A stretch of DNA of 64,000 nucleotides from Pseudacidovorax sp. RU35E (GTDB lineage: Bacteria; Pseudomonadota; Gammaproteobacteria; Burkholderiales; Burkholderiaceae_C): contig NZ_FTMY01000008.1 of the NCBI RefSeq assembly GCF_900156165.1, positions 248,001-312,000 on the forward strand. Reading direction: 5' to 3'. The notes under the pieces are model-generated. The model was not told the DNA's origin and searched no databases. It saw nothing but the letters and a program-made list of their open reading frames with translations. A program made the position numbers and the translations under genes. Positions 19,845 through 34,809 of this stretch are shown here, in pieces. Each line of letters opens with the position of its first letter. Position 1 is the stretch's first letter.

Positions 19845-20744
19845 ATGCCGGTCACCCTGGACGACAAGCTCGTGGTCGCGATCTCCTCGCGTGCCCTGTT
19901 CAACCTCGAGGAGGAAAACCGCCTGTTCGACGCCGGCGATCCGGCCGGCTACATGCGGCTGCAGCTGGAGCGGCTGGAGGTGCCGGCGCAGCCCGGCATC
20001 GCCTATTCGCTGGTGCGCAAGCTGCTGCGCTTCAATGCCGATGGCGTGCAGCGGGTGGAGGTGGTGATCCTGTCGCGCAACGATCCGGTCTCGGGCATGC
20101 GCATCTTCAACTCCGGCGCGGCGGCGGAACTCGCCATCGAGCGCGGCGTGTTCACCCAGGGCCGGCCGCCCTTCCGCTACCTCACGCCGCTGCGGGCCGA
20201 CCTCTTCCTCTCGGCCAACGCCGACGATGTGCGCGAGGCGCTGGGCGCGGGCTTTGCGGCGGCGCATGTGAGCGTGGAATCGGCGCTGGCCGGCAACCAG
20301 CATCCGGACGAAGTGCGCATCGCCTTCGACGGCGACGCCGTGCTGTTCTCCGACGAGGCCGAGCGCATCTACCAGCAGCAGGGCCTGGCCGCCTTCCAGG
20401 CGCACGAGGCGGACAAGGCCGCCGTGCCGCTGGGCGCCGGACCGCTCGCGCCCTTCCTGGTGGCGCTCCATCGGCTGCAGCAGGCCGCCAGCACCGGCAT
20501 GCGCATCCGCACGGCGCTGGTCACGGCCCGCGGGGCTCCGGCCCACCGCCGCGCCATCCAGACGCTGATGAGCTGGAACATCCGCGTGGACGAGGCGATG
20601 TTCCTGGCCGGGCTGGACAAGGGTGGCTTCCTGCGCGAGTTCGAGCCCGACTTCTTCTTCGACGACCAGACCGGCCATGTGCGCTCGGCCGCGCGCCATG
20701 TGCCGGCCGGGCATGTGGCCAGCGGCATCAGCAACCCGCGCTGA
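19845..20744 (+). CDS. Cytosolic-type 5'-nucleotidase (NT5C1 family)
   Basis: The 299-residue protein matches the bacterial 5'-nucleotidase family related to cytosolic 5'-nucleotidase 1A. Landmarks are LVVAISSRALFNLEEENRLF, SRNDPVSGMRIFNS, DVRIAFDGDAVLFSDEAERI-like sequence (here VRIAFDGDAVLFSDEAERI), KGGFL and FFFDDQTGH. The Asp-containing segments fit a HAD-like phosphatase core. It would dephosphorylate nucleoside monophosphates in the cytoplasm. The ATG at 19845 is chosen over 19773 because the upstream extension is not conserved in character. Monocistronic, convergent with the GntR gene. Confidence 0.85.
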   Translation: MPVTLDDKLVVAISSRALFNLEEENRLFDAGDPAGYMRLQLERLEVPAQPGIAYSLVRKLLRFNADGVQRVEVVILSRNDPVSGMRIFNSGAAAELAIERGVFTQGRPPFRYLTPLRADLFLSANADDVREALGAGFAAAHVSVESALAGNQHPDEVRIAFDGDAVLFSDEAERIYQQQGLAAFQAHEADKAAVPLGAGPLAPFLVALHRLQQAASTGMRIRTALVTARGAPAHRRAIQTLMSWNIRVDEAMFLAGLDKGGFLREFEPDFFFDDQTGHVRSAARHVPAGHVASGISNPR

Positions 20745-20767
20745 TCCTCCGCGCCGGCCAGGCCGCC

Positions 20768-21586
20768 TCAGCTCGCCGGCGGCACTTCGTGCACGAAATG
20801 GCCAGCGCTGAGTGTGTTCACCGTCTCGCCCGGGATGTCCATGAGGATGCGGCTGCGCTCGGGCGTCATCGACACGGTGATGTACTGCACGGGCCGGGCC
20901 TGCGGGTCGTGGATCACGCGCACGATCTTCAATAGCGGCATGCCGACCTCGGTCTGCAGGAGACGGGCGCGCGCCGGGTCGCTCACTTCCGCAGTGATCT
21001 CCTGGATCACACGGCCGAACTTCACGCCCTGCGCAAGAAGAATCTCGTAGAGCGCCTGCTTGCGCAGTGTGACGGCGGTCACATGCTTGCCCAGGCGCGC
21101 AGGCACCCAGGCGTCGGTCAGCATCACCGGCGTGCCGTCGATGCTGCGCAGGCGCAGCGCATGCACGGCCCTCTCGCCCGGCTCCAGCTGCAGCAGCGCG
21201 GCCACGTCCAGCGGTGGCTCGGCCTGCTCGACGCGCAGCACCTGCACCTGGGTATCGATCGCTGCCTGACGCAGGCTGTCGATGAGGCTGAGGCTGGGCC
21301 GCGCACGCGCCAGCGGCAGCCGGTCATTGCGCACGAAAGTGCCCCGGCCATGCCTGCGCTCGACCAGCCCCTGCGCCGCCAGATCGGCCAACGCGCGCCG
21401 CACCGTGATGCGCGAGACGCCGAAGCGCTCGCACAGCGCCTCCTCCTTGGGGAGCAGGCCCGAGGCGTACTCGCCCCGCACGATCTCGTCGCGCAACACC
21501 ATGAAGAGTTGCCGATGCAGGGAGGTGCCGGGCGTGCGGGCGACAGCAGCGGTGTCGGACGCGGTCGGTGCGGAAGCGGACTTCAT
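20768..21586 (-). CDS. GntR-family regulator, HutC/UTRA subfamily
   Basis: The 272-residue protein has an N-terminal winged helix (SLHRQLFMVLRDEIVRGEY, FGVSRITVRRALADLAAQG, GRGTFV) and a C-terminal UTRA effector domain typical of the HutC subfamily. It is divergent from the catabolic operon starting at 21721 and most likely represses it and itself. I chose the ATG at 21584-21586 because the longer frame to 21652 would begin inside the operator palindrome at 21643-21668. The effector is presumably a substrate or intermediate of the operon. Confidence 0.92.
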   Translation of the reverse strand: MKSASAPTASDTAAVARTPGTSLHRQLFMVLRDEIVRGEYASGLLPKEEALCERFGVSRITVRRALADLAAQGLVERRHGRGTFVRNDRLPLARARPSLSLIDSLRQAAIDTQVQVLRVEQAEPPLDVAALLQLEPGERAVHALRLRSIDGTPVMLTDAWVPARLGKHVTAVTLRKQALYEILLAQGVKFGRVIQEITAEVSDPARARLLQTEVGMPLLKIVRVIHDPQARPVQYITVSMTPERSRILMDIPGETVNTLSAGHFVHEVPPAS

Positions 21587-21629
21587 GCGGGTCGGGGGTG
21601 AGGGCAATACACCGGGCCGAGCATAGTCG

Positions 21630-21657
21630 TTGACTTGTGTTAATGTTGTCATAATAA
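21630..21657 (+). promoter_or_regulatory. Promoter of the catabolic operon
   Basis: TTGACT at 21630-21635 and TAATAA at 21652-21657 are separated by 16 bp, in an AT-rich patch that stands out from its surroundings. The -10 box falls in the centre of the inverted repeat at 21643-21668, so a bound repressor would block RNA polymerase. The first operon gene starts at 21721 with a good AGGAAAGG ribosome-binding site. Confidence 0.5.
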
Positions 21658-21668
21658 TAAGACAACAT
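21643..21668. promoter_or_regulatory. GntR-type operator candidate
   Basis: ATGTTGTC (21643-21650) and GACAACAT (21661-21668) form a perfect 8-bp inverted repeat with a 10-bp AT-rich spacer. A further GACAAC half-site lies at 21673-21678. The element sits between the divergent GntR gene and the lyase gene and covers the -10 box. It is the obvious binding site for the GntR protein; this is inferred from position and symmetry. Confidence 0.6.
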
Positions 21669-21720
21669 ATTCAGACAACGCCGCCCGGTCCGCCCCGGCA
21701 GCACCAGGAAAGGCCTTCTC

Positions 21721-22626
21721 ATGGATCCGACACCCACCCCCTTCAGCGCTGCAGCCCAACTGCGTCAGCAACTTGCCGCCCCGGGCATGCGCATCGCCCC
21801 CGGCGCCTACGACGGCATCGGCGCCCGCCTGATCGAACAGGCCGGCTTCGGCGCCTGCTACATGACCGGCGCCGGCACGTCGGCCGCGCGGGGCTTTCCG
21901 GATTTCGGCCTGCTGACCCTGAGCGAGATGGTGGAGAACGCCGCCGTGATGGCCCGGTCGGTGCAGATCCCCCTGATCGCCGATGCCGACACGGGCTATG
22001 GCAACGAGTTGAACGTCACCCGCACCGTGCGTGAATACGAGGCACGCGGCGTGGCGGCGATCCACCTCGAGGACCAGGTCTCGCCCAAGCGCTGCGGGCA
22101 CCTGGATGGCAAGGAAGTGATCTCGCGCGAAGAATTCGTCTCGAAGATCCGGGCCGCGGTGGAAGCGCGGCGCACACCCGATTTCCTGCTCATCGCGCGC
22201 ACCGATGCGCGCGCCATGCTCGGCCTGGAGGAGGCCCTCTGGCGCGCCGAGGCGGCCCTCGATGCGGGCGCCGACGTGGCCTTCGTCGAGGCCACGCAGT
22301 CGGTCGAAGAGGCCGCGCTCGTACCGCGCCGCATCAAGGGCATGTGCCTGCTGAATGTGGTGCCGGGCGGCCGCACGCCGGTGCACGACCTGCGCCAGGC
22401 CGAGGAGATGGGCTACAAGCTTGCGATCCTCCCCGGCCTGATGTTGAAGGCGACCATCGAGGCCGGCGATGCCGCCCTCGCCGAGGTCAAGGCCACGATG
22501 CGGGCGCCCACCACCAGCGCCACCGTAGCCCAGACCTTCCGGCGTTTCGGGGCCGACGAGTGGGACGCCCTGCGCACCCGCTTCAACGCCGGCGCGACGA
22601 TGGAAGCGCCGAAGAAGGCCGCCTGA
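21721..22626 (+). CDS. Isocitrate lyase / PEP mutase superfamily lyase
   Basis: The 301-residue protein is in the PEP mutase/isocitrate lyase family. The metal-binding ADADTGYGN, the catalytic KRCGH loop (Cys125) and ARTDA are present. A Cys in the K(K/R)CGH loop points to a carbon-carbon lyase, not a phosphonomutase. Characterised relatives cleave 2-methylisocitrate or 2,3-dimethylmalate (to pyruvate plus propionate) or decarboxylate oxaloacetate. It is followed after 1 bp by LeuC-like and LeuD-like subunits, an arrangement that recalls dimethylmalate lyase with dimethylmaleate hydratase. The substrate is not determined. Confidence 0.88.
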   Translation: MDPTPTPFSAAAQLRQQLAAPGMRIAPGAYDGIGARLIEQAGFGACYMTGAGTSAARGFPDFGLLTLSEMVENAAVMARSVQIPLIADADTGYGNELNVTRTVREYEARGVAAIHLEDQVSPKRCGHLDGKEVISREEFVSKIRAAVEARRTPDFLLIARTDARAMLGLEEALWRAEAALDAGADVAFVEATQSVEEAALVPRRIKGMCLLNVVPGGRTPVHDLRQAEEMGYKLAILPGLMLKATIEAGDAALAEVKATMRAPTTSATVAQTFRRFGADEWDALRTRFNAGATMEAPKKAA

Positions 22627-22627
22627 C

Positions 22628-24073
22628 ATGCAGGCTCCGCACTCATCGCTTCGCGCAGCGCCGCGGCCCGAAGGGCCACGCACCCTCTTCGACAAGCTGT
22701 GGGACGCCCACGTCATCCGCGAACTGGGCGACGGTTGGGCCCTGCTGCACATCGACCGCCACCTGCTCCACGACCTGTCGGGCCCGCCTGCGTTGAACGA
22801 CGTGCGCACGCGCGGGCTGCCGCTGCACGACCCGGAACTGGTCTTCGCCACGCCCGATCACGCCGTGTCCAGCCAGCCCGGGCGGGTGGCCACCACCTTC
22901 CCGCTGGGCGGGCGGCTGCATGCGGGCCTGAAGCAGCTCACCGGTGCCATGGGCGTGCAGCTGTTCGACCTCGGTGAGCCCGGCCAGGGCATCGTGCATG
23001 TGATGGGCCCCGAGATGGGCATCGTGCTGCCCGGCCTCACGGTGATCTGCGGCGACAGCCACACCTGCACCAACGGCGGACTGGGCGCGATGGCCTTCGG
23101 CGTGGGCTCGTCCGAAAGCACCCATGCGCTGGCCACACAGACGCTGCGCCAGCAGAAGCCGCGCCGCATGCGCATCCGCTGCGAAGGGCGGCTGGCGGCG
23201 GGCGTGACGGCCAAGGACCTCGCGCTGCACCTCATCGGTCGCCTGGGGGCCGCCGCAGGCGTAGGCTACGCGATCGAGTTCGCCGGCCCGGCTGTCGAGG
23301 CACTGGACGTGGAAGGCCGCCTCACGCTGTGCAACCTCAGCGTGGAGTTGGGGGCGCGCTTCGGCATGGTCGCACCCGACGAGACCACCATCGACTGGCT
23401 GCGCGGCCGCTCGTACGCGCCGCAGGGCGAGGCCTTCGAGGCTGCCGCCGCCTACTGGCGCACGCTGGCCAGCGATGCCGATGCGGTGTTCGACCGCGAG
23501 GAGACCCTCGACGCCGGTGCCGTCGCGCCGACCATCACCTGGGGCACCAGCCCCGAGCATGCGATCGCCATCGACGGCGCGGTGCCCGACCCGGCGCATG
23601 CCGCCTCGGCCACCGAGCGCGAGGCCTGGAACGCCGCGCTCGACTACATGGGGCTGCAGGCCAATGCACCCATCGCCGGCACGACCGTCGACTGGGTGTT
23701 CATCGGCTCCTGTGCCAACTCGCGCCTGGCGGACCTGCGCGCAGCCGCAGAGGTGGCGCGCGGCCGCCGCGTGGCCGACGGCGTGCGCGCCTGGGTCGTG
23801 CCAGGCTCCGAGAACGTCAAGCGCGCCGCCGAGGCCGAAGGCCTGCACGCGCTGTTCGTCGCCGCCGGCTTCGAGTGGCGCGAGCCCGGCTGCAGCATGT
23901 GCGTGGCCGCCAACGGGGAGCAGGTGCCGCCGCAAAAGCGCTCGGTCTCGACCTCCAACCGCAATTTCGTCGGACGCCAGGGGCCGGGCGCCCGCACCCA
24001 CCTGGCCAGCCCGGCGATGGCCGCCGCCGCGGCGGTCACCGGCCGCATCACCGACGTGAGGAGCCTGGCGTGA
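22628..24073 (+). CDS. Aconitase-family hydratase large subunit (LeuC-like)
   Basis: The 481-residue protein is a LeuC-type large subunit of a [4Fe-4S] hydro-lyase. The cluster cysteines are Cys362 (GSCANSR) and Cys422/Cys425 (GCSMC), and the active-site segment CGDSHTCTNGG is intact. It pairs with the LeuD-like subunit encoded next. In this context a role in leucine synthesis is unlikely, since no leuA or leuB is nearby and the operon is catabolic; dimethylmaleate, citraconate or a related unsaturated acid is more likely. It begins 1 bp after the lyase stop and overlaps the next gene as GTGA. Confidence 0.88.
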   Translation: MQAPHSSLRAAPRPEGPRTLFDKLWDAHVIRELGDGWALLHIDRHLLHDLSGPPALNDVRTRGLPLHDPELVFATPDHAVSSQPGRVATTFPLGGRLHAGLKQLTGAMGVQLFDLGEPGQGIVHVMGPEMGIVLPGLTVICGDSHTCTNGGLGAMAFGVGSSESTHALATQTLRQQKPRRMRIRCEGRLAAGVTAKDLALHLIGRLGAAAGVGYAIEFAGPAVEALDVEGRLTLCNLSVELGARFGMVAPDETTIDWLRGRSYAPQGEAFEAAAAYWRTLASDADAVFDREETLDAGAVAPTITWGTSPEHAIAIDGAVPDPAHAASATEREAWNAALDYMGLQANAPIAGTTVDWVFIGSCANSRLADLRAAAEVARGRRVADGVRAWVVPGSENVKRAAEAEGLHALFVAAGFEWREPGCSMCVAANGEQVPPQKRSVSTSNRNFVGRQGPGARTHLASPAMAAAAAVTGRITDVRSLA

Positions 24074-24696
24074 ACCACCCTTTCACCACCCTCACCGGCC
24101 CCGCCGTGCCGCTGATGAGGGCCAACGTCGACACCGACGTCATCATCCGCATCGAACGCCTGACCACGCTGGGCAAGGACGCGCTGGGTCCCTATGCCTT
24201 CGAGGCCCTGCGCCGCCGACCCGACGGCAGCGAGGACGCCGACTGCGTCCTGAACGCACCCCGCTTTCGCCAGGCGCCGCTGCTGCTGGCCGCCGAGAAC
24301 TTCGGCTGCGGCTCGTCGCGCGAGGGCGCCGTGTGGGCGCTGCAGGGCATCGGCGTGCGCTGCGTCATCGCGCCGAGCTACGGCGACATCTTCTGGAGCA
24401 ACTGCTTCCAGAACGGCGTGTTGCCGATCACGCTGCCGATCGGCCAGGTGCAGTCGCTGGCCATTCAGTGCGAGGGCGGCGCGTCCGTGACGGTGGACCT
24501 GCAGACCTGCAGCGTGGCGGCGCCGGATGGCCAGCTCATCCCCTTCGCGATCGACCCGCTGCGCCGCGAGGCGCTGCTGCACGGGCTCGACGACATCGGC
24601 CTCACCCTCAAGGACGACGCGCTGATCCGCGACTGGCAGGCCGCCGACCGGCTGCGGCGCCCGTGGGCCTGGCCTGCCGCCCGCTCGCGCCCCTAG
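24070..24696 (+). CDS. Aconitase-family hydratase small subunit (LeuD-like)
   Basis: The 208-residue swivel-domain subunit has the LeuD landmarks VPLMRANVDTDVIIR, AENFGCGSSREGAVWAL and YGDIFWSNCFQNGVLPI. It completes the active site of the LeuC-like protein. The start is a GTG at 24070 overlapping the upstream stop. Substrate-determining residues lie in the loop after DTD; IIRIERLT differs from the IPxxxL of classical LeuD, which supports a substrate other than isopropylmalate. The last 20 residues are Arg/Pro/Trp-rich. Confidence 0.87.
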   Translation: MNHPFTTLTGPAVPLMRANVDTDVIIRIERLTTLGKDALGPYAFEALRRRPDGSEDADCVLNAPRFRQAPLLLAAENFGCGSSREGAVWALQGIGVRCVIAPSYGDIFWSNCFQNGVLPITLPIGQVQSLAIQCEGGASVTVDLQTCSVAAPDGQLIPFAIDPLRREALLHGLDDIGLTLKDDALIRDWQAADRLRRPWAWPAARSRP

Positions 24697-24757
24697 CCCA
24701 CGGGTTCCCACCGCAGCAACAACGACAAACAAGACGGGCACTGCCCACGGAGACGAC

Positions 24758-25747
24758 ATGCCATCTCGATCCAAGCGGAATCGACCCGCCGCGCGCGCAC
24801 TGCTGGCCGCAGCCACCGTGCTTCTGACCACCAGTGTCGCGACCGCGCAACCCGCGCCCTGGCACCCCGAGCGCCAGGTGACGCTGATCGTCCCCTACGC
24901 CGCGGGCGGAGGCACGGATGCGACCGCACGCGCCGTGGCCAGGCAACTCGGCGTGCTGTGGAAGCAGCCGGTGGTGGTCGAGAACCTGCCGGGCGCCGAC
25001 GGTCTGATCGGCACCCGCCGCGCAATGGAAGCCAGGCCCGACGGCTACACCCTGCTGCTGCAGGTGCCGGCCATCGTGCTGACCAAGTACACGCCAGGTC
25101 TCAAGGGCATCGATCCGCTGGCGCAGCTCGCGCCGGTGACGGCCGTCTCCCAATCGCCCGCCGCCATCGTGGCCAGCGCCCGACTGCCGGTGAAGACACT
25201 GCCCGAGCTCTTCCAGTACTGCCAGAAGGCGCCGCAGCCCTGCTCGATCGCCAGTGGCGAGACGCTGGCGAGGGTGAGCGCCAAGCAGATCGCGGCCGAG
25301 GTGCCGCTGCCGGGCCTCATCACCGTCAACTACCGCGGCACGGGCGCCATCGTGACGGACATGATCGCCAACAACGTGAACTTCGCCTTCACCGGCATCA
25401 CGGCCGCGCTGCCGCACCACCGGGCCGGCACCTTGCGCATCCTGGCCACACAAGGCCGCACACGCGCTGCCGTGCTGCCGGACGTGCCGACCACCGCCGA
25501 GGCCGGCTTCCCGCAGTTCCAGTCGACCACCTGGTTCGGCCTCTTCGCGCCCAAGGGCACGCCGGCGCCGGTGCAGCAGGGCATCGTGGCAGCGCTGCGG
25601 GAGGCGGTGAAGGACGCCGACGTGCGCCAGGCGATCAGTGCCGCCGGTGCCGAGCCGGTCGTGAACGAACCTGCTGTGTTCGCGGCCCAGGTGCGCGAAG
25701 AGGACGAGCGCCTGGGCGCGCTGGTCAAGCGCTACCCGCTGGAATGA
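24758..25747 (+). CDS. Bug/TctC-family periplasmic solute-binding protein 1
   Basis: The 329-residue precursor has a signal peptide ending near VATAQPAP and the tripartite tricarboxylate transporter receptor pattern: VTLIVPYAAGGGTDATARAVA, VVENLPGADGLIG, ARPDGYTLL and LPDVPTTAEAGFP. Bug receptors bind carboxylates such as citrate, aspartate or nicotinate in the periplasm. A GGAGA ribosome-binding site precedes the ATG. No tctA or tctB membrane genes are in the window, so it must act with a transporter encoded elsewhere or as a sensor. Confidence 0.92.
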   Translation: MPSRSKRNRPAARALLAAATVLLTTSVATAQPAPWHPERQVTLIVPYAAGGGTDATARAVARQLGVLWKQPVVVENLPGADGLIGTRRAMEARPDGYTLLLQVPAIVLTKYTPGLKGIDPLAQLAPVTAVSQSPAAIVASARLPVKTLPELFQYCQKAPQPCSIASGETLARVSAKQIAAEVPLPGLITVNYRGTGAIVTDMIANNVNFAFTGITAALPHHRAGTLRILATQGRTRAAVLPDVPTTAEAGFPQFQSTTWFGLFAPKGTPAPVQQGIVAALREAVKDADVRQAISAAGAEPVVNEPAVFAAQVREEDERLGALVKRYPLE

Positions 25748-25769
25748 CACGCGAGAACCGGAGCCCCCC

Positions 25770-26945
25770 ATGAATCCCACGACGCTTCCCGCCGAGGGCG
25801 AACAGCTCGAACTGCGCTGCGTGCTGATGCGCGGCGGCACGAGCAAGGCCCTGTTCTTCCATGAGGCGGACGTGCCGCCGCCCGGCCCGGCGCGCGACCG
25901 GCTGCTCAAGCGCGCCATGGGCACACCCGACGTGCTGCAGATCGACGGCATGGGCGGCTCACGCCTGGTCACGTCCAAGATCGCGATCATCAAGCGTTCG
26001 CAGCGGTCCGACGCCGACGTCGACTACACCTTCGCGCAGGCCGACGTCGAGCGCGACCTGATCGGCTACGACGCCAACTGCGGCAACATCTCCTCGGCCG
26101 TGGCGCCCTTCGCCATCGACGAAGGCCTCGTGCAGGCGCTGGAGCCGCTGACCACCGTGCGCATCCACAACACCAATACCGGGACGGTGTTCGTGTCGAA
26201 GGTGCAGGTGCGCAACGGCAGGGCGCGCGTGCAGGGCGACTGCGCCATCGCCGGCGTGCCGGGGACGGGCGCCGAGATCCTGATGGACTACACCGACACG
26301 CTGGGCGCCAAGACCGGGCGGCTGCTGCCCACCGGCCGTGCGATCGACAGCCTCGCGCTGCAGGACGGCCGCCGCGTCGAGGTCTCCATCGTCGATGCGG
26401 CCACGCCCTGCGTGTTCATCGCCGCGAGCTCGCTGGGCCTCACGGGCAGCGAGCTGCCGCCCGACATCAGCGCCGACCGCGCACTGATCGAGGCCATCGG
26501 CGAGCTGCAGTCCAAAGCCGGCGAGCGCATCGGGCTGTACAAGCACTGGCAGGACGTGCATCTGCCTGGCCTGCCGCTTGCCGTGCTGGTGGCCCCCCCG
26601 GCCGACTACACCGACACCAACGGCCAGGCGGTGAGCGCCGGCGACTGCGACCTGCGGGCGCGGCTCGTCTTCCTGGGCAAGTGCCACGACAGCATGGCGG
26701 GCACCGGCTCGATGTGCACGGCCGCCGCATCGCGCGTGCCCGGCTCGCTGGTGAGCGCAGCGGTGGGCGAGCGCGCCGGCACCGACACGCTGCGCATCGG
26801 CCATCCGCTGGGCGTGATGACCGTCAAGGTCGTCGCCCGACCCGGCGCCACGCCGGCCGACACGCGCTTCGATGCGCTGGGCCTGCAACGCACGGCCCGC
26901 CGCCTGATGGCCGGCACGGTGTACGTGCCGCGCGACGCGCTCTGA
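25770..26945 (+). CDS. PrpF-family isomerase (aconitate/methylitaconate-type)
   Basis: The 391-residue protein has the PrpF/DapF fold signature: VLMRGGTSKALFF, catalytic DANCGNISSA (Cys104) and the second catalytic loop AGTGSMCTAAA (Cys316). The family moves double bonds or isomerises cis/trans in acids: PrpF (2-methylaconitate), methylitaconate isomerase and 4-oxalomesaconate tautomerase GalD are known members. Next to an aconitase-family hydratase and an isocitrate-lyase-like enzyme, it probably prepares the double bond for hydration. It lies 22 bp after the first Bug gene. Confidence 0.9.
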   Translation: MNPTTLPAEGEQLELRCVLMRGGTSKALFFHEADVPPPGPARDRLLKRAMGTPDVLQIDGMGGSRLVTSKIAIIKRSQRSDADVDYTFAQADVERDLIGYDANCGNISSAVAPFAIDEGLVQALEPLTTVRIHNTNTGTVFVSKVQVRNGRARVQGDCAIAGVPGTGAEILMDYTDTLGAKTGRLLPTGRAIDSLALQDGRRVEVSIVDAATPCVFIAASSLGLTGSELPPDISADRALIEAIGELQSKAGERIGLYKHWQDVHLPGLPLAVLVAPPADYTDTNGQAVSAGDCDLRARLVFLGKCHDSMAGTGSMCTAAASRVPGSLVSAAVGERAGTDTLRIGHPLGVMTVKVVARPGATPADTRFDALGLQRTARRLMAGTVYVPRDAL

Positions 26946-26990
26946 AGCGCACTGAAATTCCGCTTACCGAGAACGACGGAGACGACACCC

Positions 26991-27968
26991 ATGCCCATCC
27001 TCCCTTCGCGCCGCCATGCCATGGCCGCCCTCGCCGGCCTGGCATTCGCCGGCCCTGCACTCGCGCAAGGCCTGCCCGCCAAGCCACTGCGCATCGTCGT
27101 CGGCTACCCGGCCGGCCAGACCGTGGACATCGTGGCACGCAACTTCGCGGCGGCGCTCACCAAGGAGCTCGGCCAGCCGGTGATCGTCGACAACCGCCCC
27201 GGCGCCAACGGCAGCCTGGGCGCCCAGGAGGTGAAGCGAAGCGCGCCCGACGGCACCACCATCCTGCTCGGCACGCTGGGCCAGATGACCATCAATCCCA
27301 CGCTCTACAAGAAGCTGCCCTACGACACGCTGAAGGACTTCGCGCCCATCGCTCAGGTCAGCACTGGTGCGTTGCTGCTGGTGGCGACGCCCTCCTTCGG
27401 ACCCAACAACCTCAAGGAGCTGATCGCCTATGCAAAGCAGCGGCCGGGCAAGGTGGACTTCGCTTCGGGCGGCAACGGCATCACGGCGCACCTCGCGATG
27501 GTGGTGCTCGAGCGCCAGGCCGGCCTGCAGCTCAACCACATTCCGTACAAGGGCTCGCCGGCCGCCGTCAATGACGTGATGGCCGGGCAGGTGCCGATCA
27601 TGTTCGACGCGGTGGCGTCCACGCTGCCGCAGGTCAAGGGCGGCAAGCTGAAGCCGCTTGCCATCTCCAGTCTCAAGCGCAACCCGCAGCTGCCGGACGT
27701 GCCGACCGCCGACGAGCAGGGGCTCAAGGGCTTCGACATCAGCTCCTGGGTGGGCTTCCTGGCGCCCGCCGGCACGCCGCCTGCCGCGGTGAATGCGCTG
27801 CACGCGGCCATCCAGCGCGCGTCGGCCAGTCCCGAAGTCCAGGAGACGATCCGCGCCACGGGCAGCGAACTGGCCATCACCGCGCCGGCCGACTTCGGCC
27901 GCTTCCTGGCGAGCGAAATCCGCAAGTGGGGCCAGGCCGTCAACGACGCCGGCGTGCAGGTGGATTGA
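26991..27968 (+). CDS. Bug/TctC-family periplasmic solute-binding protein 2
   Basis: A 325-residue Bug receptor with signal peptide RRHAMAALAGLAFAGPALAQG. Family motifs: LRIVVGYPAGQTVDIVARN, VIVDNRPGANGSLGA, LPYDTLKDFAPIAQV, HIPYKGSPAAVNDVMAGQV and LPDVPTADEQG. The ligand-contact loop VGYPAGQTVD differs from PYAAGGGTD in receptor 1, suggesting a different ligand. It is preceded by an ACGGAGACGAC ribosome-binding region like that of receptor 1. Confidence 0.93.
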   Translation: MPILPSRRHAMAALAGLAFAGPALAQGLPAKPLRIVVGYPAGQTVDIVARNFAAALTKELGQPVIVDNRPGANGSLGAQEVKRSAPDGTTILLGTLGQMTINPTLYKKLPYDTLKDFAPIAQVSTGALLLVATPSFGPNNLKELIAYAKQRPGKVDFASGGNGITAHLAMVVLERQAGLQLNHIPYKGSPAAVNDVMAGQVPIMFDAVASTLPQVKGGKLKPLAISSLKRNPQLPDVPTADEQGLKGFDISSWVGFLAPAGTPPAAVNALHAAIQRASASPEVQETIRATGSELAITAPADFGRFLASEIRKWGQAVNDAGVQVD

Positions 27969-28014
27969 CGCTACGCGCCCCCTCCTCTTCCACCCTCGAC
28001 CCGGAGACATTCCC

Positions 28015-28749
28015 ATGCCCAGCATCGACATTGCCGGCGACGCCCGCCGCACCCTCGACATCATCAAGAACGGAGGCGTCGCCATCGTGCCCAACGATAC
28101 GGGCTACGCCTGCTGCGGCGGCTCGATGGACCCGCTGCAGAAGATCTACGCGACCAAGCAGCGGGGCGGCCACAAGCGCAACGCCATGGCCGCCGACCTG
28201 GAGACCCAGCGCGAGCTGCAGACGCTCAGCCCCCGCGCCCAGGCGATGGTGGAGGCGCTGGTTGTCGACCATGACCTGCCGCTGGGCGTGATCGGCAGCT
28301 TCCGGCCCGACCACCCGCTGCTGCGGCAACTGGGCGACGAAGCGGTGCGCGCCAGTTCGGCCGTCGGCACCATCGGCGTCCTGCTCAACGCCGGCCCCTT
28401 CCACAAGGCACTGACCCGGTTGAGCCGCGAAGAGGTGGTGCCGCTCTTCGGCTCGTCGGCCAACCTCACGGGCACCGGCACGCGCTTTCGCGTGGAGGAC
28501 ATCCAGCCCGAGCTGCGCGCCATTGCCGACATCACCATCGACTACGGCCTGCGCCGCTATCACGTGTACCGCCGCGCAGGCACGCTGATCAACTTCGACA
28601 CCCTGCAGGTCATTCGCATGGGCGCGTGCTACGAGCTGATCTCCGGCGTACTCAAGCGATGGTTCGACGTCGACCTGCCCGAAGATCCGGGCGTCGAGAC
28701 GCTGCCCTCGGGGCACCTCAACGAGTTCGCACTGCAGGGCGTGCAATGA
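28015..28749 (+). CDS. Sua5/YciO/YrdC-like protein within the catabolic operon
   Basis: The 244-residue protein has a YrdC-like nucleotide-binding fold: GGVAIVPNDTGYACCGG, KQRGGHKR (the K-x-R pair that binds ATP in TsaC/Sua5) and LFGSSANLTGTG (the S-x-N motif). True TsaC/Sua5 makes threonylcarbamoyl-AMP for tRNA t6A. The C-terminal 80 residues (ITIDYGLRRYHVYRRAGTLI onward) are not the Sua5 domain. Its place between two Bug receptor genes and before an acyl-CoA ligase argues for a role other than tRNA modification; what it activates is unknown. Its TGA overlaps the next ATG. Confidence 0.8.
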   Translation: MPSIDIAGDARRTLDIIKNGGVAIVPNDTGYACCGGSMDPLQKIYATKQRGGHKRNAMAADLETQRELQTLSPRAQAMVEALVVDHDLPLGVIGSFRPDHPLLRQLGDEAVRASSAVGTIGVLLNAGPFHKALTRLSREEVVPLFGSSANLTGTGTRFRVEDIQPELRAIADITIDYGLRRYHVYRRAGTLINFDTLQVIRMGACYELISGVLKRWFDVDLPEDPGVETLPSGHLNEFALQGVQ

Positions 28750-29756
28750 GCGGCCTCCGCACACCCTGCCCCGGCGCCGACCTGGCCCGTCGCGCCTGCC
28801 TGGGCCGCCTGGCCGGTGCCGCAGGTGCGTGGGCGCTCGGGCTGCCGGCGCGCGCCCAGGCCTGGCCGACCCGCCCGCTGCGCGTGGTGCTGGGCTACAC
28901 GCCCGGCGGCTCCGCCGACACGACCGCGCGCGAACTCACCGTGCCGCTGACGGCCGCGCTCGGCCAGCCGCTGGTGGTGGACTACAAGGCCGGTGCCAGC
29001 GGCACCATCGCCGGCGCGGAGGTCGCGCGCGCCGCACCCGACGGCTACACGCTCGGCCTGCTCGACAACGCCCCGCTCACCATCGTGCCGGCGCTGCGCA
29101 ATGCGGGCTACGACCCGCTCGCCGCCTTCACGCCGATCACCATGGTGTCGCATGTGCCCCAGGTGCTGGTGGCGTCGACGTCGGCCGGCGTCGGCACGCT
29201 GCGCGAGCTGATCGAGGCGATGCGCAAGGCGCCCGGGAAGTTCAGCTACGCCTCAGGCGGCGCGGGCAGCGTCGGCCATCTCACCACCGAACTGCTCAAG
29301 TCGCGCACCGGCACCTATGCGTTGCATGTGCCCTACCGCGGCGGCGCGCCCGCCATCAATGCCCTTCTCGCGGGCGAGGTGCAGTTCGCCTTCCTCACGC
29401 CGACGGCCACGCAGGGCTTCATCCAGGCCGGCAAGCTGAAGCCGCTTGGCGTGAGCTCGCGCTCCCGCGTGGCTTCCCTGCCCGGGGTACCCACCATCGC
29501 CGAGTCGGTCGCTCCCGGCTTCGAGGCGCCGGGCTGGTTCGCGCTCGTCGGTCCCGCGGGGCTGCCCGAGCCGGTCGTCTCGACCCTGCGCCGCTCGGTG
29601 GCTCAAGTGCTTGCCACGCCTGCGACCGTCAGCCGGCTCGAAGCGCTGGGCCAGACCCTGCCGCCCGCAGGCCAGGACGTGCGCGGCGTGATCACGGCGG
29701 AGCTCGCCACCTGGAGGCAGCTCGTCGCCGAACGCAAGCTCGTCATCGAAGGCTGA
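28746..29756 (+). CDS. Bug/TctC-family periplasmic solute-binding protein 3
   Basis: A 336-residue Bug receptor translated from an ATG that overlaps the stop of the Sua5-like gene. It carries an Arg-containing, Tat-like or Sec leader (RRACLGRLAGAAGAWALG, cleavage near ARAQA). Motifs LRVVLGYTPGGSADTTAREL, VVDYKAGASGTIAGAEVA, APDGYTLGL and LPGVPTIAES identify the family. Overlap with the Sua5-like gene suggests coupled translation and a shared function. Confidence 0.92.
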   Translation: MSGLRTPCPGADLARRACLGRLAGAAGAWALGLPARAQAWPTRPLRVVLGYTPGGSADTTARELTVPLTAALGQPLVVDYKAGASGTIAGAEVARAAPDGYTLGLLDNAPLTIVPALRNAGYDPLAAFTPITMVSHVPQVLVASTSAGVGTLRELIEAMRKAPGKFSYASGGAGSVGHLTTELLKSRTGTYALHVPYRGGAPAINALLAGEVQFAFLTPTATQGFIQAGKLKPLGVSSRSRVASLPGVPTIAESVAPGFEAPGWFALVGPAGLPEPVVSTLRRSVAQVLATPATVSRLEALGQTLPPAGQDVRGVITAELATWRQLVAERKLVIEG

Positions 29757-29776
29757 GAAGTGTGAAAGAAACTGCC

Positions 29777-31441
29777 ATGTTGCAAGGCCTGATGCAGGAC
29801 CGCCCCCTGCTGATCTCCAACCTGATCGAGTTCGTCGAGCGCCACAACGGCGATGCCGAGATCGTCTCGCGTCGCGTGGAGGGCGACATCCACCGCTACA
29901 CCTGGGCGGCTTGCGCACGGCGTGCCCGCCAGGTGGCCAACGCGCTCGATGACGAGCAGCTGCAAGTCTCCGACCGCGTCGCGACGCTGGCCTGGAACGG
30001 CTACCGCCACCTGGAGCTGTACTACGGCGTCAGCGGCTCGGGCCGCGTGCTGCACACCATCAACCCGCGGCTGCACCCGGACCAGATCGCCTGGATCGTG
30101 AACCATGCCGAAGACCAGGTGCTGTGCTTCGACCTGAGCTTCCTGCCGGTGGTGCAGGCGGTGCATGCAAAGTGCACGACGGTCCGGAAGTGGGTCGCCC
30201 TGTGCGACATCGACCGGCTGCCGGCCGACAGCGGCGTTCCCGGCCTGGCGAGCTATGAAGCCTGGATCGGCGGACAGGCCAACACCTATGACTGGCCGGT
30301 GTTCGACGAGAACGCGGCGTCGAGCCTGTGCTACACGAGCGGGACCACCGGTAATCCCAAGGGCGCGCTCTACAGCCACCGCTCCACCGTGCTGCATGCC
30401 TACGGCTCTGTACTGCCGGACATGATGGCCCTGTCGGCGCGCGACTCGGTGCTGCCTGTGGTGCCGATGTTCCACGTCAATGCCTGGGGCATTCCGTACT
30501 CGGCGGCCCTGGTGGGCTGCAAGCTCGTCTTTCCGGGGCCGGCGCTCGACGGCAAGTCGGTCTACGAGCTCATCGAGGCCGAAAAGGTCAGCTTCGCAGC
30601 CGGCGTGCCCACCGTGTGGCAGATGCTGCTGGCGCACACGCAGGCCGGCGATCTCGGCTTCTCCACGCTGCGTCGCACGGTGATCGGCGGCGCGGCCTGC
30701 CCGCCGGCGATGCTGCGCGAATTCGAGCAGCAGCATGATGTGCGCGTGCTCCACGGCTGGGGCATGACCGAGATGAGCCCGCTGGGCACGGTGTGCTCGC
30801 TCAAGAAGGCCCACGACTGCTTGCCACGCGAGGCGCAGCTTCGTGTGCTTGAGAAGCAGGGCCGCGCGGTCTACGGCGTCGACATGAAGATCGTCGATGC
30901 ACAGGGCCGGGCCCTGCCCTGGGACGGCCGCGCCGCCGGCGACCTGCTGGTGCGCGGTCCGTGGATCGTGCGGGCCTACTTCAAGGGCGAGGGCGGCAAC
31001 CCGCTGGTAGACGGCTGGTTCCCCACCGGCGATGTGGCCACCCTCGACGCCGAGGGTTACCTGCAGATCACCGACCGCAGCAAGGACGTCATCAAATCGG
31101 GCGGCGAATGGATCAGCTCCATCGACATCGAGAACATCGCCATGGCGCACCCGGCTGTGGCGCTGGCGGCCTGCATCGGCATTCCTCACCCGAAGTGGGA
31201 CGAACGCCCCATCGTCGTCGTCGCCCGCAAGCCCGGCGCCCGCCTCGAACGCGAGGAGCTGCTGGCCTTCTACGAAGGCAAGACGGCGCGCTGGCAGGTG
31301 CCCGACGACGTCGTCTTCGTGGACGCCATTCCGCTCGGCGCCACCGGCAAGATCCTCAAGACCCGGCTGCGCGAGGACCTGCGCGGCCATACCCTGCCCG
31401 GGACGGCCCGGGACGGCCCGGGCCTGATGGTGCACCCATGA
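29777..31441 (+). CDS. AMP-forming acyl-CoA synthetase
   Basis: The 554-residue protein is an ANL-superfamily ligase that activates a carboxylate with ATP and CoA. The AMP-binding motif [51 protein letters not shown] and the C-terminal catalytic lysine region [14 protein letters not shown] are all present. The N-terminus [19 protein letters not shown] resembles medium-chain and 3-(methylthio)propionyl-CoA ligases. Here it may activate an acid product of the lyase. An ATG overlap couples it to the MmgE/PrpD gene. The 3' end holds a tandem repeat of GGGACGGCCC, which lengthens the C-terminal tail. Confidence 0.88.
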
Positions 31442-32889
31442 CCGACACCCGACCTGCTGGCGGCGCCACCCCGGCGCGTCCCACCGACCCGGCCGCGCCC
31501 ACCGGCCTGCTGTGCGATTGGCTCGCCGGCTTCACGCTGGACGATGCACCCGAGTCGGCCCGCGAGCGCGCGCGCATGCTCACGCTCGACGGCATCGCCT
31601 GTGCAATCGTGGGCGCCCAGCTTCCGTGGTCGCGCACAGCGGTCGACATCGTGCGCCGTTTCGAAGGCGCCGGCACGCACACGATCGTCGGCTGGGGCGC
31701 AGGCACCAATGCGCCTGCGGCGGCGCTGCTCAACGGCACCTTCATCCAGGGCTTCGAGCTGGACGACTACCACCCGCTGGGACCGCTGCACAGCGCCTCC
31801 ATCGTGCTGCCCGCATTGTGGGCCGCTGTGGAAAGCTCGACGGCGCCCGTCACAGGACGCCGATTCCTGGAGGCCGCGATGGTCGGCTACGAGGTCGGAC
31901 CACGCGTCGGCATGGCACTGCACGGCGCGCAGATGCTGTCGCGCGGCTGGCATTCGGGATCGGTCTTCGGCACGCATGCAGCCGCCGCGGCCGTGGGCAA
32001 GCTGCTCGGCTTGGACGCCGCCCGCTTCGAGGACGCGCTGGGCCTGGCCGGGACCCAGTCTGCCGGGCTCATGGCCGCGCAGTACGAAGCAATGTGCAAG
32101 CGCATGCACCATGGCTTCTCCGCACGCAACGGCCTGTATGCGGCGGTGCTGGCCGAAGGCGGCTACACCGGCATCAAGCGGGTGTTCGAGCGGGAGTACG
32201 GCGGTTTCCTCTCCACTTTCGGCGAAGGGCATGACCCCGACGCCTCGCAGATCACCGATGGCCTGGGCACCCGCTGGGAGGTGGAGCGCATCGTCATCAA
32301 GCCCTATGCAGCGATGGGCGGCATCCACTCGCCGCTCGACGCACTGTTCGACATCGGCCGTCAACGTCCGCTGCGCGCCAGCGAGATTGCACGCATCGAA
32401 TGCGACGTGTCGCATGCGGTCTACCACCACGGATGGTGGACGCCGCAGCGGCCCCTCACGCCGATCGGCGCACAGATGAACATCGGCTATGCACTCGCGG
32501 TGGCCGTGCTCGACGGCGCCGCCATGGTGGCCCAGTTCGCGCCGAACCGCATCGACGCCGATGACGTGTGGGCACTGCTGCCGCGCATCGAGGTGCGGCA
32601 CGACCCGGCGTTCGACACCGGCGGCATGATGCGCCGCGGCCGCACGCGCGTCGCCGTGACCTTCCATGACGGAGAGCGGCTGGAGGTCGAGCGCAACGCC
32701 TCGCGCGCCATCGAGTCGCCGCAGACCAGCGCCGAGATTGCCAGCAAATACCGCACGCTGACCGACGCGCTCATCGATGCGCCGCGGCAGCAGGCGATCG
32801 AGTCGCTGGTGCGCGGGCTCGACGCGGTCGGCGACATGCGCGAACTCCTTGCGCGGCTGGCACCGCCGGCGCGCGCCGCGTTCGACTGA
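31438..32889 (+). CDS. MmgE/PrpD-family protein
   Basis: The 483-residue protein belongs to the MmgE/PrpD family, which includes 2-methylcitrate dehydratase and cis-aconitate decarboxylase. Recognisable segments: LCDWLAGFTLDDAPESARERAR, ALLNGTFIQGFELDDYHPLGPLHSASIVLPAL, MCKRMHHGFSARNGLYAAVLAEGGYTG (about 220) and the KPYAAMGGIHSPLDAL lid. The AKRMH-like HG motif used by cis-aconitate decarboxylase is represented by KRMHHG. Dehydration or decarboxylation of a tricarboxylate would fit the operon. It starts in an ATGA overlap with the ligase. Confidence 0.88.
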   Translation: MTDTRPAGGATPARPTDPAAPTGLLCDWLAGFTLDDAPESARERARMLTLDGIACAIVGAQLPWSRTAVDIVRRFEGAGTHTIVGWGAGTNAPAAALLNGTFIQGFELDDYHPLGPLHSASIVLPALWAAVESSTAPVTGRRFLEAAMVGYEVGPRVGMALHGAQMLSRGWHSGSVFGTHAAAAAVGKLLGLDAARFEDALGLAGTQSAGLMAAQYEAMCKRMHHGFSARNGLYAAVLAEGGYTGIKRVFEREYGGFLSTFGEGHDPDASQITDGLGTRWEVERIVIKPYAAMGGIHSPLDALFDIGRQRPLRASEIARIECDVSHAVYHHGWWTPQRPLTPIGAQMNIGYALAVAVLDGAAMVAQFAPNRIDADDVWALLPRIEVRHDPAFDTGGMMRRGRTRVAVTFHDGERLEVERNASRAIESPQTSAEIASKYRTLTDALIDAPRQQAIESLVRGLDAVGDMRELLARLAPPARAAFD

Positions 32890-32964
32890 GTTTTTCGCGC
32901 CAGATCAGCCGCGAGGCCCGCAGCTCGGGCACCGCAGCCATGAACTCGAAAGAAGGAGACACGG

Positions 32965-33939
32965 ATGACGCTACTTGTACGTATGGCTCTGGTTGCGCTC
33001 GCTCTGAGCATGGGCCCGGGCGCCGCGATGGCTCAGTCACCGGCATGGCCCACCAAGCCGATCCGCATCGTGACACCCTACGCCGCGGGCGGCCCCGGGG
33101 ACGACAGCGCGCGCATGGTGGCCGACGGCCTGGCCAAGGCCCTGGGCCAACCGGTCATCGTCGACAACAAGCCCGGTGCAGGGGGCATCATCGGCGCCGA
33201 CGTGGTGGCCAAGGCGCCGGCCGACGGCTACACCCTGCTGGCCGCCGCCAACGGCACGCTGATCAACAGCCTGATCCGCAGCAAGATGCCCTACGCCCCT
33301 GGCGACCTGGTTCCGGTGACGGGTGTCACAGCGTCACCGTCGCTGCTGGTGGTCGATCCCGCACTTGCAGCCAAGGACCTCAAGGCCTTGCAGGCCCTCG
33401 CCCGGGCCGAGCCTCGCGGCATCTTCTTCGCGACCACCGGCATCGGCAGCACCAGCCATTTCTCGGGCGAGCTGATCAAGGCGGCGCTGGGCGTTCCACT
33501 CACCTTCGTTCAATACAAGAGCGGCGGCGAGAGCAGCGCTGCGCTGCATTCGGGACAGGTGCAGATGCTTTCCGAAGTGCCCTCGGCCTCGCTCATCGCC
33601 CTGATCGGCGCGGGAAGAATGCGGGCGCTGGCCGTTGCCTCGGACCACCGACTGGCCGCATTGCCCGAGGTGCCAACGACCGTGGAAGCCGGTTTTCCCG
33701 ACATCCGCATGACGCACTGGCTCGGCCTCATGGCGCCCCGGGGCACCCCGCCGGCGGTGATGGACCGCATCAATGCGGCGGTGCAGAAGTTCATTTCCAC
33801 GCCAGAGCAGCGAAAGCTCATCGCACAGCGCAACAGCGAACCCATGTTGGGCGACCGCGCCACGTTCACGCGCTTCATCGACGACGAGCGTCGACGCCTG
33901 GGCGGCCTGGCCCAGCAACTGCGCATCGTGGCCGAGTGA
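32965..33939 (+). CDS. Bug/TctC-family periplasmic solute-binding protein 4
   Basis: A 324-residue Bug receptor with signal peptide (VRMALVALALSMGPGAAMAQ) and motifs IRIVTPYAAGGPGDDSARMVA, VIVDNKPGAGGIIGADVVA, PADGYTLL and LPEVPTTVEAGFP. AAGGAGACA is a strong ribosome-binding site 6 bp before the ATG, matching the GGAGAC leaders of receptors 1 and 2. It is the last gene of the rightward operon; a hairpin at 33965-33999 follows. Confidence 0.93.
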   Translation: MTLLVRMALVALALSMGPGAAMAQSPAWPTKPIRIVTPYAAGGPGDDSARMVADGLAKALGQPVIVDNKPGAGGIIGADVVAKAPADGYTLLAAANGTLINSLIRSKMPYAPGDLVPVTGVTASPSLLVVDPALAAKDLKALQALARAEPRGIFFATTGIGSTSHFSGELIKAALGVPLTFVQYKSGGESSAALHSGQVQMLSEVPSASLIALIGAGRMRALAVASDHRLAALPEVPTTVEAGFPDIRMTHWLGLMAPRGTPPAVMDRINAAVQKFISTPEQRKLIAQRNSEPMLGDRATFTRFIDDERRRLGGLAQQLRIVAE

Positions 33940-33964
33940 GCGCATGACGCAGTGCCGGTGCCGG

Positions 33965-33999
33965 GGCCGTGTGCCGGCCTGCCGGCCCTGTGCACGGCC
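33965..33999 (+). terminator. Probable operon-end hairpin
   Basis: GGCCGTG (33965-33971) pairs with CACGGCC (33993-33999), and inside it GCCGGC (33973-33978) can pair with GCCGGC (33981-33986). The nested stem is very stable but has no T-run. It lies between convergent genes 26 bp after the last Bug gene, so termination or 3'-end protection is plausible. Confidence 0.4.
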
Positions 34000-34044
34000 G
34001 AAGCCTTGGCGTCTCCAGCTCTCGTCCGCCGCCGGCTCGCGTGC

Positions 34045-34473
34045 TCAATCCAGAAGCGCCAGCGTGGCCGAATCGCGCGTCCCTTCGAAGAAGCGCTGGA
34101 GGCATTGGGCGAAGAGGGTCTCCTGCGTCGGAGCGATGGCGTCGAACAGTGTCATGCAGGAGTGGAACTTGAGGTCGTCCGGCGGCCCGAGGATGTCGAG
34201 GGCGGACGGGCCGTGCGCCGACAGCACCAGCGCACCGCACTCGCGCAGGCGGGCACCCAGCAGGGGATGGTCGAGATAGGCGACGGCCTCCGCGCGCGAG
34301 CCGATGGCGTAGCGCTGCGCCATCGCGCTGCGGCCCAGGCCCGCGATCTGCGGAAAGACGAACCACATCCAGTGCGAGCGCTTGCGGCCGGCGGCGAGCT
34401 CCGCACGCACCTGCGCATACACCGGGGCCTGCGCTTCGACGAAGCGTGCCAGGTCGAAGGCGTCCGGCGGCAT
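34045..34473 (-). CDS. DUF1810 family protein
   Basis: The 142-residue soluble protein matches the DUF1810 family: FDLARFVEAQAPVYAQVRAEL, RKRSHWMWFVFPQIAGLG, YAIGSRAEAVAYLDHPLLG and DDLKFHSCMTLFDA. Its function is not established. It lies 4 bp downstream of the small lipoprotein gene and is probably co-transcribed with it. Confidence 0.88.
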   Translation of the reverse strand: MPPDAFDLARFVEAQAPVYAQVRAELAAGRKRSHWMWFVFPQIAGLGRSAMAQRYAIGSRAEAVAYLDHPLLGARLRECGALVLSAHGPSALDILGPPDDLKFHSCMTLFDAIAPTQETLFAQCLQRFFEGTRDSATLALLD

Positions 34474-34477
34474 GGGC

Positions 34478-34609
34478 TCAGGCCCGCGCCGCGAAGGCCG
34501 ACGACGCGGGCGCCTCGGCCTTGGGCACCGGAGCGCCCGGCTTGGGCTTGTCGTTGCAGCCAGCGAGCAGGAAGGCCAGACCGGCCAGGAGGGCGAAGAG
34601 GGGCTTCAT
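34478..34609 (-). CDS. Small lipoprotein
   Basis: A 43-residue peptide MKPLFALLAGLAFLLAGCND... with a clear lipobox LLAGC, so a lipidated mature peptide of about 26 residues rich in Lys/Pro/Ala would remain. The frame extends upstream to 34699, but the start at 34609 gives a proper signal peptide. Such tiny lipoproteins are common and functionally uncharacterised. Divergent from the ABC transporter at 34810. Confidence 0.65.
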   Translation of the reverse strand: MKPLFALLAGLAFLLAGCNDKPKPGAPVPKAEAPASSAFAARA

Positions 34610-34746
34610 GCAACCCATCGTAGGCCGCCGGCCGCCGACGGCCAAGCCGGCCGGCCATGCCCCACCCGTCAGCGCGGGAAGCCCGCACGGCCGCGCCAAG
34701 GGGCGCTTTCAGTCCGGTTTAAGGCAGGCCACCGGCCGCGTCGCTA

Positions 34747-34791: not shown

Positions 34792-34809
34792 CCGCTTCGA
34801 CCCACCACG

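Follow-up and report, generated by a model that had tools for sequence, protein, structure and literature searches.

Which acid does a bacterium consume when it encodes, side by side, a PrpF-fold isomerase, a two-subunit hydratase of the aconitase family, a lyase of the isocitrate lyase (ICL)/phosphoenolpyruvate (PEP) mutase superfamily, an acyl-CoA ligase and an MmgE/PrpD protein? This question is raised by a gene set found at 20768-33939 of a 64,000-nucleotide stretch of Pseudacidovorax sp. RU35E DNA, referred to below as the window (248001-312000 of contig C9; the genome comprises 5.69 Mb in 28 contigs). A first-pass annotation had named these families, and all of them were found in place, each above its Pfam cut-off. 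The set of this soil bacterium looks made to import an unusual branched acid and to split it to pyruvate and a short fatty acid. We infer substrates, reactions and regulation from the observed gene families, gene order, conservation, subfamily markers and a palindrome, and on this basis there is about an even chance that the genes encode a dedicated aerobic pathway, probably induced by its substrate, and that this substrate is a branched unsaturated 1,4-dicarboxylate of the alkylitaconate/alkylmaleate type.

In the proposed pathway an alkylitaconate would be converted via an alkylmaleate and an alkylmalate to pyruvate and a short acid, which would end as an acyl-CoA. The branched acid would be captured by periplasmic binding proteins of the TctC/Bug type and imported with the help of one of seven TctA-family proteins, all encoded elsewhere in the genome, or of another carrier. 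The MmgE/PrpD protein, whose role is the least certain, would make or normalise the unsaturated acid, the PrpF-fold enzyme would shift the double bond from alkylitaconate to alkylmaleate, and the LeuC/LeuD-type hydratase (LeuCD) would add water to yield a 2-methyl-2-hydroxy diacid of the citramalate or 2,3-dimethylmalate type. The sequence would suit either a C5 (itaconate/citraconate) or a C6 (methylitaconate/dimethylmaleate) version, and 3-methylitaconate isomerase (Mii) accepts itaconate besides methylitaconate, as stated in PMC4720413. The lyase, which carries a KRCGH motif, would then cleave the hydroxy diacid to pyruvate and acetate, propionate or a slightly longer acid, and the ligase would turn the short acid into its CoA ester.

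The lower part of nicotinate fermentation in Eubacterium barkeri is encoded by a gene set for Mii, dimethylmaleate hydratase (DmdAB) and Dml. The resemblance to this route, suggested in the first-pass annotation, is the best supported of those considered as regards the isomerase and the lyase, but does not extend to the branch of the hydratase. Among solved structures the isomerase is nearest to Mii (3G7K, 344.6 bits), followed by the PrpF chains 2PVZ (234.5 bits) and 5K87 (232.8 bits), 2H9F (deposited as hypothetical, 218 bits), YbhH (209 bits) and oxalomesaconate isomerases (190-195 bits). It is 45.0% identical to Mii over 371 columns, and K70 and C104 align with K62 and C96, the catalytic residues of Mii; the same pair occurs in PrpF-type references, i.e., it is a necessary but not sufficient mark of the Mii type. 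In the isomerase tree, the window protein belongs to a clade (100/99) that is separate from the clade of PrpF references (100/100). An isomerase of the latter clade is encoded elsewhere in the same genome (L052, 88-9952, G000:C4), together with Bug, a full-length aconitase, a lyase, an acyl-CoA dehydrogenase, a carrier protein and an AMP-binding protein, i.e., a prp-like set in a genome without an above-cut-off methylcitrate synthase. This C4 PrpF/lyase pair was dropped as a PrpB reference since its lyase motif reads LMNMVIGG rather than TEFG.

The lyase of the window is nearest to 2,3-dimethylmalate lyase (DML; 3FA3, 199.7 bits), followed by oxaloacetate hydrolase (OAH, 195.0 bits), PDP (185 bits), 4IQD (deposited as carboxyvinyl-carboxyphosphonate phosphorylmutase, 182.7 bits) and methylisocitrate lyases (141-165 bits). 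Its identity to 3FA3 is 45%, as compared to 36% for the methylisocitrate lyase 9HRA. Where 9HRA and 4IQD read NMTEFG, a position that in the lyases of isocitrate and methylisocitrate presumably points towards the distal carboxylate, the window protein reads NVVPGG, and DML, OAH and PDP likewise lack the threonine. The combination of PKRCGH and NVVPGG agrees with the DML type (TKRCGH and NMVEHG in the reference), a pattern that OAH and PDP fit as well. TEFG was found in none of the six aligned members among the seven PEP_mutase-family genes of the genome (the C5 copy is unaligned at this site and the C10 copy is outside the alignment). The protein is proposed to be an alkylmalate lyase, cleaving an acid of the 2,3-dimethylmalate or citramalate type.

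Both subunits of the hydratase pass the general leuC and leuD models (TIGR00170 and TIGR00171), and the large subunit carries cysteines in SCANSR and CSMC to which we ascribe a role in Fe-S binding. The small subunit nonetheless lacks the canonical features of 3-isopropylmalate dehydratase, i.e., a PKQFL or PA-FL loop and SSREH: the window LeuD reads NVDTDVIIRIERLT, with an RIERLT loop, and SSREG, while the housekeeping LeuD of the same genome reads NVDTDAIIPKQFLK, with a PKQFLK loop, and SSREH. A role in leucine biosynthesis was rejected since a higher-scoring LeuC is encoded on C8 (773 bits) and the LeuD loop differs. The hydratase scored below the cut-offs of both archaeal-type models, i.e., LEUD_arch (TIGR02087, "LeuD/DmdB"; 70 bits, cut-off 108.95) and IPMI_arch (TIGR02086; 264 bits, cut-off 410.15), of which the latter presumably includes DmdA of dimethylmaleate hydratase. 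Likeness to DmdAB was judged by these profile cut-offs. When 77 loci were scanned directly for the loop, R[IV]ER was present in all 16 LeuD-holding loci that had been selected by PrpF and also in L044, L055-L058, L062, L066 and L067, with RIDR in L054, RVEP in L060 and canonical-type loops in L026, L028/L048, L059, L061, L063 and L064. Locus L048 (4324-9074, G000:C20) is a second GntR-Bug-lyase-LeuC-LeuD set of the same genome, in which the proteins from lyase to LeuC are 41-47% identical to those of the window and LeuD has another loop, PTIFL, and SSRER.

The gene order did not arise by chance, and it recurs across PrpF-selected relatives. Among the 21 PrpF-selected loci (four on contigs <10 kb; L009 and L010 from the same strain), LeuC and LeuD are found in 16, the lyase in 15, GntR (≥63% identity) in 13, MmgE (≥78%) in 11, YrdC in eight and the ligase in seven; the closest loci are mostly from Xenophilus. 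When loci were selected by the lyase, at least five of 399 genomes of the order, own included, gave a match at 1e-85 (a lower bound, with five candidates scored per genome); in all four non-own genomes a large subunit of the aconitase family adjoins the lyase (79, 50, 58 and 30% identity), and PrpF is near the lyase in one. Selection by LeuC gave ten plasmid records at 60-80% identity, of which eight (all but H46 and H47) were examined; the lyase adjoins LeuCD in six of these, and three have PrpF. From these three sets of counts, lyase and LeuCD emerge as a conserved core, while PrpF, MmgE, YrdC-Bug3 and the ligase are variable. The gene set is rare in the genome samples drawn, with a close PrpF in one of 300 genomes of the order and a close MmgE in two of 299 genomes of the family, own included in each. 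A phylum-wide LeuD search (37 of 398 genomes) mixes the subfamily with LeuD at ~46-52% identity and was not used for counts.

Sets of regulator, lyase, LeuCD and transporter without PrpF are found in Methylobacterium, Azospirillum and Skermanella, of which the latter two are less similar (lyase 45-49%, LeuD 43-47%). In Novosphingobium US6-1, genes for a CoA transferase and an HMGL-family enzyme come after the same LeuCD type, where the lyase would otherwise stand, and an FAA-hydrolase gene lies two genes before LeuC, parts that would be those expected for citraconate formed from methylgentisates; the Methylobacterium set has a divergent CoA transferase and HMGL alongside, i.e., both solutions side by side. 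Because the Novosphingobium LeuCD is paired with CoA transferase and HMGL-family enzyme, a 2-methyl-2-hydroxy diacid is favoured as the intermediate that is cleaved.

In L050 of the same genome (1360-15251, G000:C17), GntR, a branched-chain-type ABC importer and a second kind of LeuC/LeuD (35% identical) stand in a row with hydantoinase B and A, an isochorismatase-family protein, a FAD_binding_2 protein and an ICL-family lyase, which may be read as conversion of a cyclic imide to a diacid followed by desaturation, hydration and cleavage. HyuAB genes also accompany lyase-LeuCD-PrpF in Tistrella (L067), and in Bradyrhizobium (L074) they are found close to MmgE-PrpF. In Cupriavidus (L019, 3443-11182; L020, 3421-9976), PrpF is preceded by an unusual catabolic neighbourhood with genes for a luciferase-like monooxygenase, MmgE, MFS, AtuA, DUF4387 and a DHBP-synthase-family protein (RibB). 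A TauD/TfdA-family dioxygenase gene adjoins PrpF in L018 (6577-11143), where it also adjoins YrdC, and in L012 (9392-11770), which suggests an oxidative entry step in some strains.

The first-pass annotation had described the genes as one regulated operon. The divergent GntR-UTRA gene, the tight spacing and a unique palindrome agree with this description, and a single transcript is likely, judged by gaps of -4 to +75 bp (4-bp overlaps for LeuC/LeuD, YrdC/Bug3 and ligase/MmgE; 1 to 75 bp at other junctions in open-reading-frame (ORF) coordinates) and by that upstream palindrome. The pattern GTTGTNNTANNNNTANNACAAC occurs once across the genome when both strands are searched, i.e., as one palindromic site, and the reversed control gave none; at up to two mismatches, the window holds one site, where 0 are expected. 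It is present in 15 of the 77 loci compared; three of the 15 represent the own locus and the other 12 come from relatives (L005, L007-L012, L015, L020, L023, L025 and L055; L009 and L010 are one strain). L014, L016 and L062 have another common stretch 5' of the lyase. The palindrome overlaps both sigma-70-like matches found in 20700-34800, one per strand; the scan itself gave two sites as compared to 0.8 (standard deviation 0.8) in shuffles, which is weak by itself, and five terminator-like sites as compared to 4.3. Because the first ATG of the GntR ORF falls inside the palindrome, the protein probably starts downstream, e.g., at Met23 (21586). GntR, most likely a repressor, would occupy this single palindrome and act there as long as its UTRA domain is free of the substrate or an intermediate. 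Since only one clear candidate operator is present, GntR could serve as a biosensor after its inducer has been identified.

Table 1. Features of the gene set, with positions in the window.
Feature	Position	Strand	Basis or remark
GntR/UTRA transcriptional regulator	20768..21652	-	Pfam UTRA 96.5 bits, GntR 67.9
Sigma-70-like TTGACT-17-AATAAT, proposed operon promoter	21630..21658	+	10/12 positions; scan overall barely above shuffles
Palindrome ATGTTGTCATAATAATAAGACAACAT, proposed operator	21643..21668	.	between regulator and lyase genes
ICL/PEP-mutase superfamily lyase, proposed alkylmalate lyase	21721..22626	+	Pfam PEP_mutase/ICL; PKRCGH; best PDB 3FA3
LeuC-type hydratase large subunit	22628..24073	+	Pfam Aconitase 521.6 bits; TIGR00170 597.3, cut-off 560.25; cysteines SCANSR, CSMC
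LeuD-type hydratase small subunit	24070..24696	+	Pfam Aconitase_C; RIERLT loop, SSREG
TctC/Bug periplasmic binding protein 1	24758..25747	+	TctC 149.7 bits
PrpF-fold isomerase	25770..26945	+	Pfam PrpF 373.2 bits; nearest solved relative Mii
TctC/Bug binding protein 2	26991..27968	+	TctC 261.3 bits
Sua5/YciO/YrdC-family protein	28015..28749	+	Pfam 47.8 bits; third such gene of genome
TctC/Bug binding protein 3	28746..29756	+	TctC 213.4 bits; start overlaps YrdC stop
Acyl-CoA ligase, 3-(methylthio)propionyl-CoA ligase (DmdB) type	29777..31441	+	NF005426 991.2, cut-off 822
MmgE/PrpD family protein, without second (epimerase) catalytic tyrosine	31438..32889	+	Pfam, structure model, alignment
TctC/Bug binding protein 4	32965..33939	+	TctC 218.2 bits

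The order is thus, rightwards, GntR (on the minus strand), lyase, LeuC, LeuD, Bug1, PrpF, Bug2, YrdC-like, Bug3, ligase, MmgE and Bug4. The neighbours on the left encode a 5'-nucleotidase, a product that has no Pfam match and an enoyl-CoA hydratase, and those on the right a DUF1810 protein and an SbmA-like ABC protein. The four TctC/Bug genes and the Sua5/YrdC-like gene are additions to the earlier inventory.

The ligase exceeds the cut-off of the 3-(methylthio)propionyl-CoA ligase equivalog, and its best PDB match is 6IHK (648 bits; next type 473), deposited as an AMP-binding domain protein but presumably a DmdB. Given the substrate range of this type, the acid released may be propionate or longer rather than acetate. 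Seven relatives have the YrdC-like protein at 77-98% identity, and its structure model has a mean pLDDT of 36.1. A role in tRNA modification is unlikely because two genomic paralogs score higher (171.4 and 157.2 bits as compared to 45.7). Its gene often accompanies Bug3 and the ligase and is near PrpF also in Cupriavidus (L020) and Variovorax (L018, L025).

The MmgE/PrpD protein was modelled with a pLDDT of 85.4, and Foldseek gave TMq values of 0.82-0.83 to IDS epimerase, 0.74-0.79 to cis-aconitate decarboxylase (CAD; 24% sequence identity), 0.77-0.78 to B. subtilis IRG1 and, when three partial chains are excluded, 0.63-0.73 to PrpD/MmgE dehydratases. Epimerases of this family use a second tyrosine (PMC12290011, Discussion), which is absent here: the protein and all 14 orthologues (≥59%) read MLSRGWH where IDS epimerase reads HYLAGWH. 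For characterised members a common (de)protonation at C2 of a 1,4-dicarboxylate is argued in PMC12290011, and the role here would fit such a step, without being fixed by it.

Several observations weigh against the proposed alkylitaconate/alkylmaleate pathway. Mii is placed on a long branch at a polytomy of the isomerase tree, in which oxalomesaconate isomerase is not included, and the lyase favours DML over OAH only narrowly in bit score. A third carboxylate might be bound by the two arginines of the RIERLT loop, and in L063 and L064 the lyases (65 and 62%) adjoin LeuCDs that are less similar and carry loops of the IPARF type. The pathway offers no step for the YrdC-like gene. In distant MmgEs (the second copy in L007 and those of L012, L058 and L062) a tyrosine does precede the histidine, and H297, a histidine of the window protein, is missing from those of L054 and L055. 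PrpF occurs without MmgE in L044 and L008, and L054 and L055 have MmgE (60-62%) and lyase-LeuCD with no PrpF within 12 and 10 kb of LeuC, respectively; because of these four loci a linear order of MmgE, PrpF and LeuCD is not obligatory.

The alternative that survives best, which we consider unlikely, is a tricarboxylate route. Here, imported aconitate, alkylaconitate or alkylcitrate would be decarboxylated or dehydrated by MmgE and isomerised by PrpF before LeuCD and lyase complete the degradation; in its neatest form, MmgE would convert cis-aconitate to itaconate, PrpF itaconate to citraconate and LeuCD citraconate to citramalate, which would be split to pyruvate and acetate. The MmgE model, nearer to IDS epimerase and CAD than to the dehydratases (the ranges nearly touch), and the missing epimerase tyrosine in this protein and its close orthologues speak for such a role, as do the TctC type of the binding proteins, the aconitate isomerase Adi1 of U. 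maydis, a PrpF-family member, and the location of PrpF relatives near TcuA tricarballylate dehydrogenase genes (Hydrogenophaga, Shinella) and near AcnA and an ICL-family lyase (Rhodococcus). However, the tricarboxylic acid cycle takes cis-aconitate directly, without such a detour, and in two loci MmgE and lyase-LeuCD occur without a nearby PrpF, which would be needed if MmgE yields itaconate, although the MmgEs of these loci (L054, L055) may act otherwise because they lack H297. The lack of the methylisocitrate-lyase reference motif and of an above-cut-off methylcitrate synthase further weaken the aconitate variant, which the first-pass annotation had left open and which retains some probability.

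An improbable alternative is a relative of the methylcitrate cycle in which PrpD-, PrpF-, aconitase-, PrpB- and PrpE-like folds, without a synthase, degrade an imported 2-alkylcitrate-like acid to pyruvate and succinate or a homologue. All five step families are indeed present in one operon that has no synthase, but the isomerase and lyase score below the prpF (262.5 bits, cut-off 440.55) and prpB (253.7 bits, cut-off 354.4) equivalog cut-offs, the isomerase lies outside the PrpF-reference clade, the MmgE model resembles CAD and IDS epimerase more closely than it does PrpD structures, and LeuCD stands where a full-length aconitase is expected. The methylcitrate cycle proper was rejected, since with these two scores that of the synthase is also too low: no protein of the genome (28 contigs, 100% complete by estimate) exceeds the TIGR01800 cut-off of 421.3, the best reaching 321 bits. 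A pathway of the gallate/4-oxalomesaconate type, with a GalD/LigU-like tautomerase, is highly improbable, for although PrpF matches the 4-oxalomesaconate tautomerase model NF033377 (331.8 bits) and the copy in V. paradoxus VAI-C adjoins a tannase/feruloyl esterase gene, this score is below the equivalog cut-off of 440, solved (4E)-oxalomesaconate isomerases are far behind Mii, and the operon proteins gave Pfam matches to neither a ring-cleavage dioxygenase nor an RraA-type aldolase.

Returning to the alkylitaconate/alkylmaleate pathway, a broader and more tentative proposal may be formulated, i.e., that it represents an aerobic CoA-independent route in which enzymes of methylcitrate-cycle families act on dicarboxylates, and that lyase-LeuCD is a general terminal alkylmaleate module in Proteobacteria, fed by an isomerase, by imide hydrolysis and desaturation, or by maleylpyruvate hydrolysis; these may also be the genes for aerobic alkylmaleate hydratase and alkylmalate aldolase activities that were reportedly described half a century ago. 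If true, bacteria would have a second, CoA-free way to consume itaconate-type acids, which are fungal products, immune metabolites and polymer building blocks, and correct functions would be suggested for genes whose present annotation reads 3-isopropylmalate dehydratase and isocitrate lyase/PEP mutase. No description of this cluster was found in full-text literature, which is weak evidence of absence as subscription papers are mostly uncovered.

How, then, does the set compare with known systems? It shares with the E. barkeri pathway an isomerase nearest to Mii with both catalytic residues, a two-subunit hydratase of the aconitase family, an ICL-superfamily KRCGH lyase and an overall logic that ends in pyruvate and a short acid, but its hydratase belongs to the bacterial LeuC/LeuD branch, below the LeuD/DmdB cut-off, and it adds MmgE/PrpD, ligase, YrdC, four Bug genes and GntR in a Comamonadaceae-type host. 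With the 2-methylcitrate cycle (PrpB, PrpF/AcnD or PrpD, PrpE) it has the dehydratase-like, isomerase, hydratase, lyase and ligase families in common; it differs in that the genome has no above-cut-off synthase, the isomerase and lyase fall below the cut-offs and the lyase lacks the TEFG-type motif. Hopper, Chapman and Dagley reportedly described, in 1971, aerobic alkylmaleate hydratase and alkylmalate aldolase activities in xylenol-grown pseudomonads, the same two steps as proposed here for LeuCD and lyase; these are not known beyond the level of activities. The pseudomonad cluster for itaconate and methylsuccinate (Ict, Ich, Ccl, Mcd, Msi), as presented in PMC12290011, also concerns branched C5 diacids and includes an MmgE/PrpD protein, but proceeds via CoA esters, and the MmgE of the window lacks the tyrosine of the isomerase. 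None of the operon proteins gave a Pfam match to a CoA transferase, enoyl-CoA hydratase or CitE-type lyase family (this search did not extend beyond the operon), and a CoA-dependent itaconate route was rejected for the operon on this ground. The families are thus known, and their combination resembles the E. barkeri route and the methylcitrate cycle, but by the tested features it is neither.

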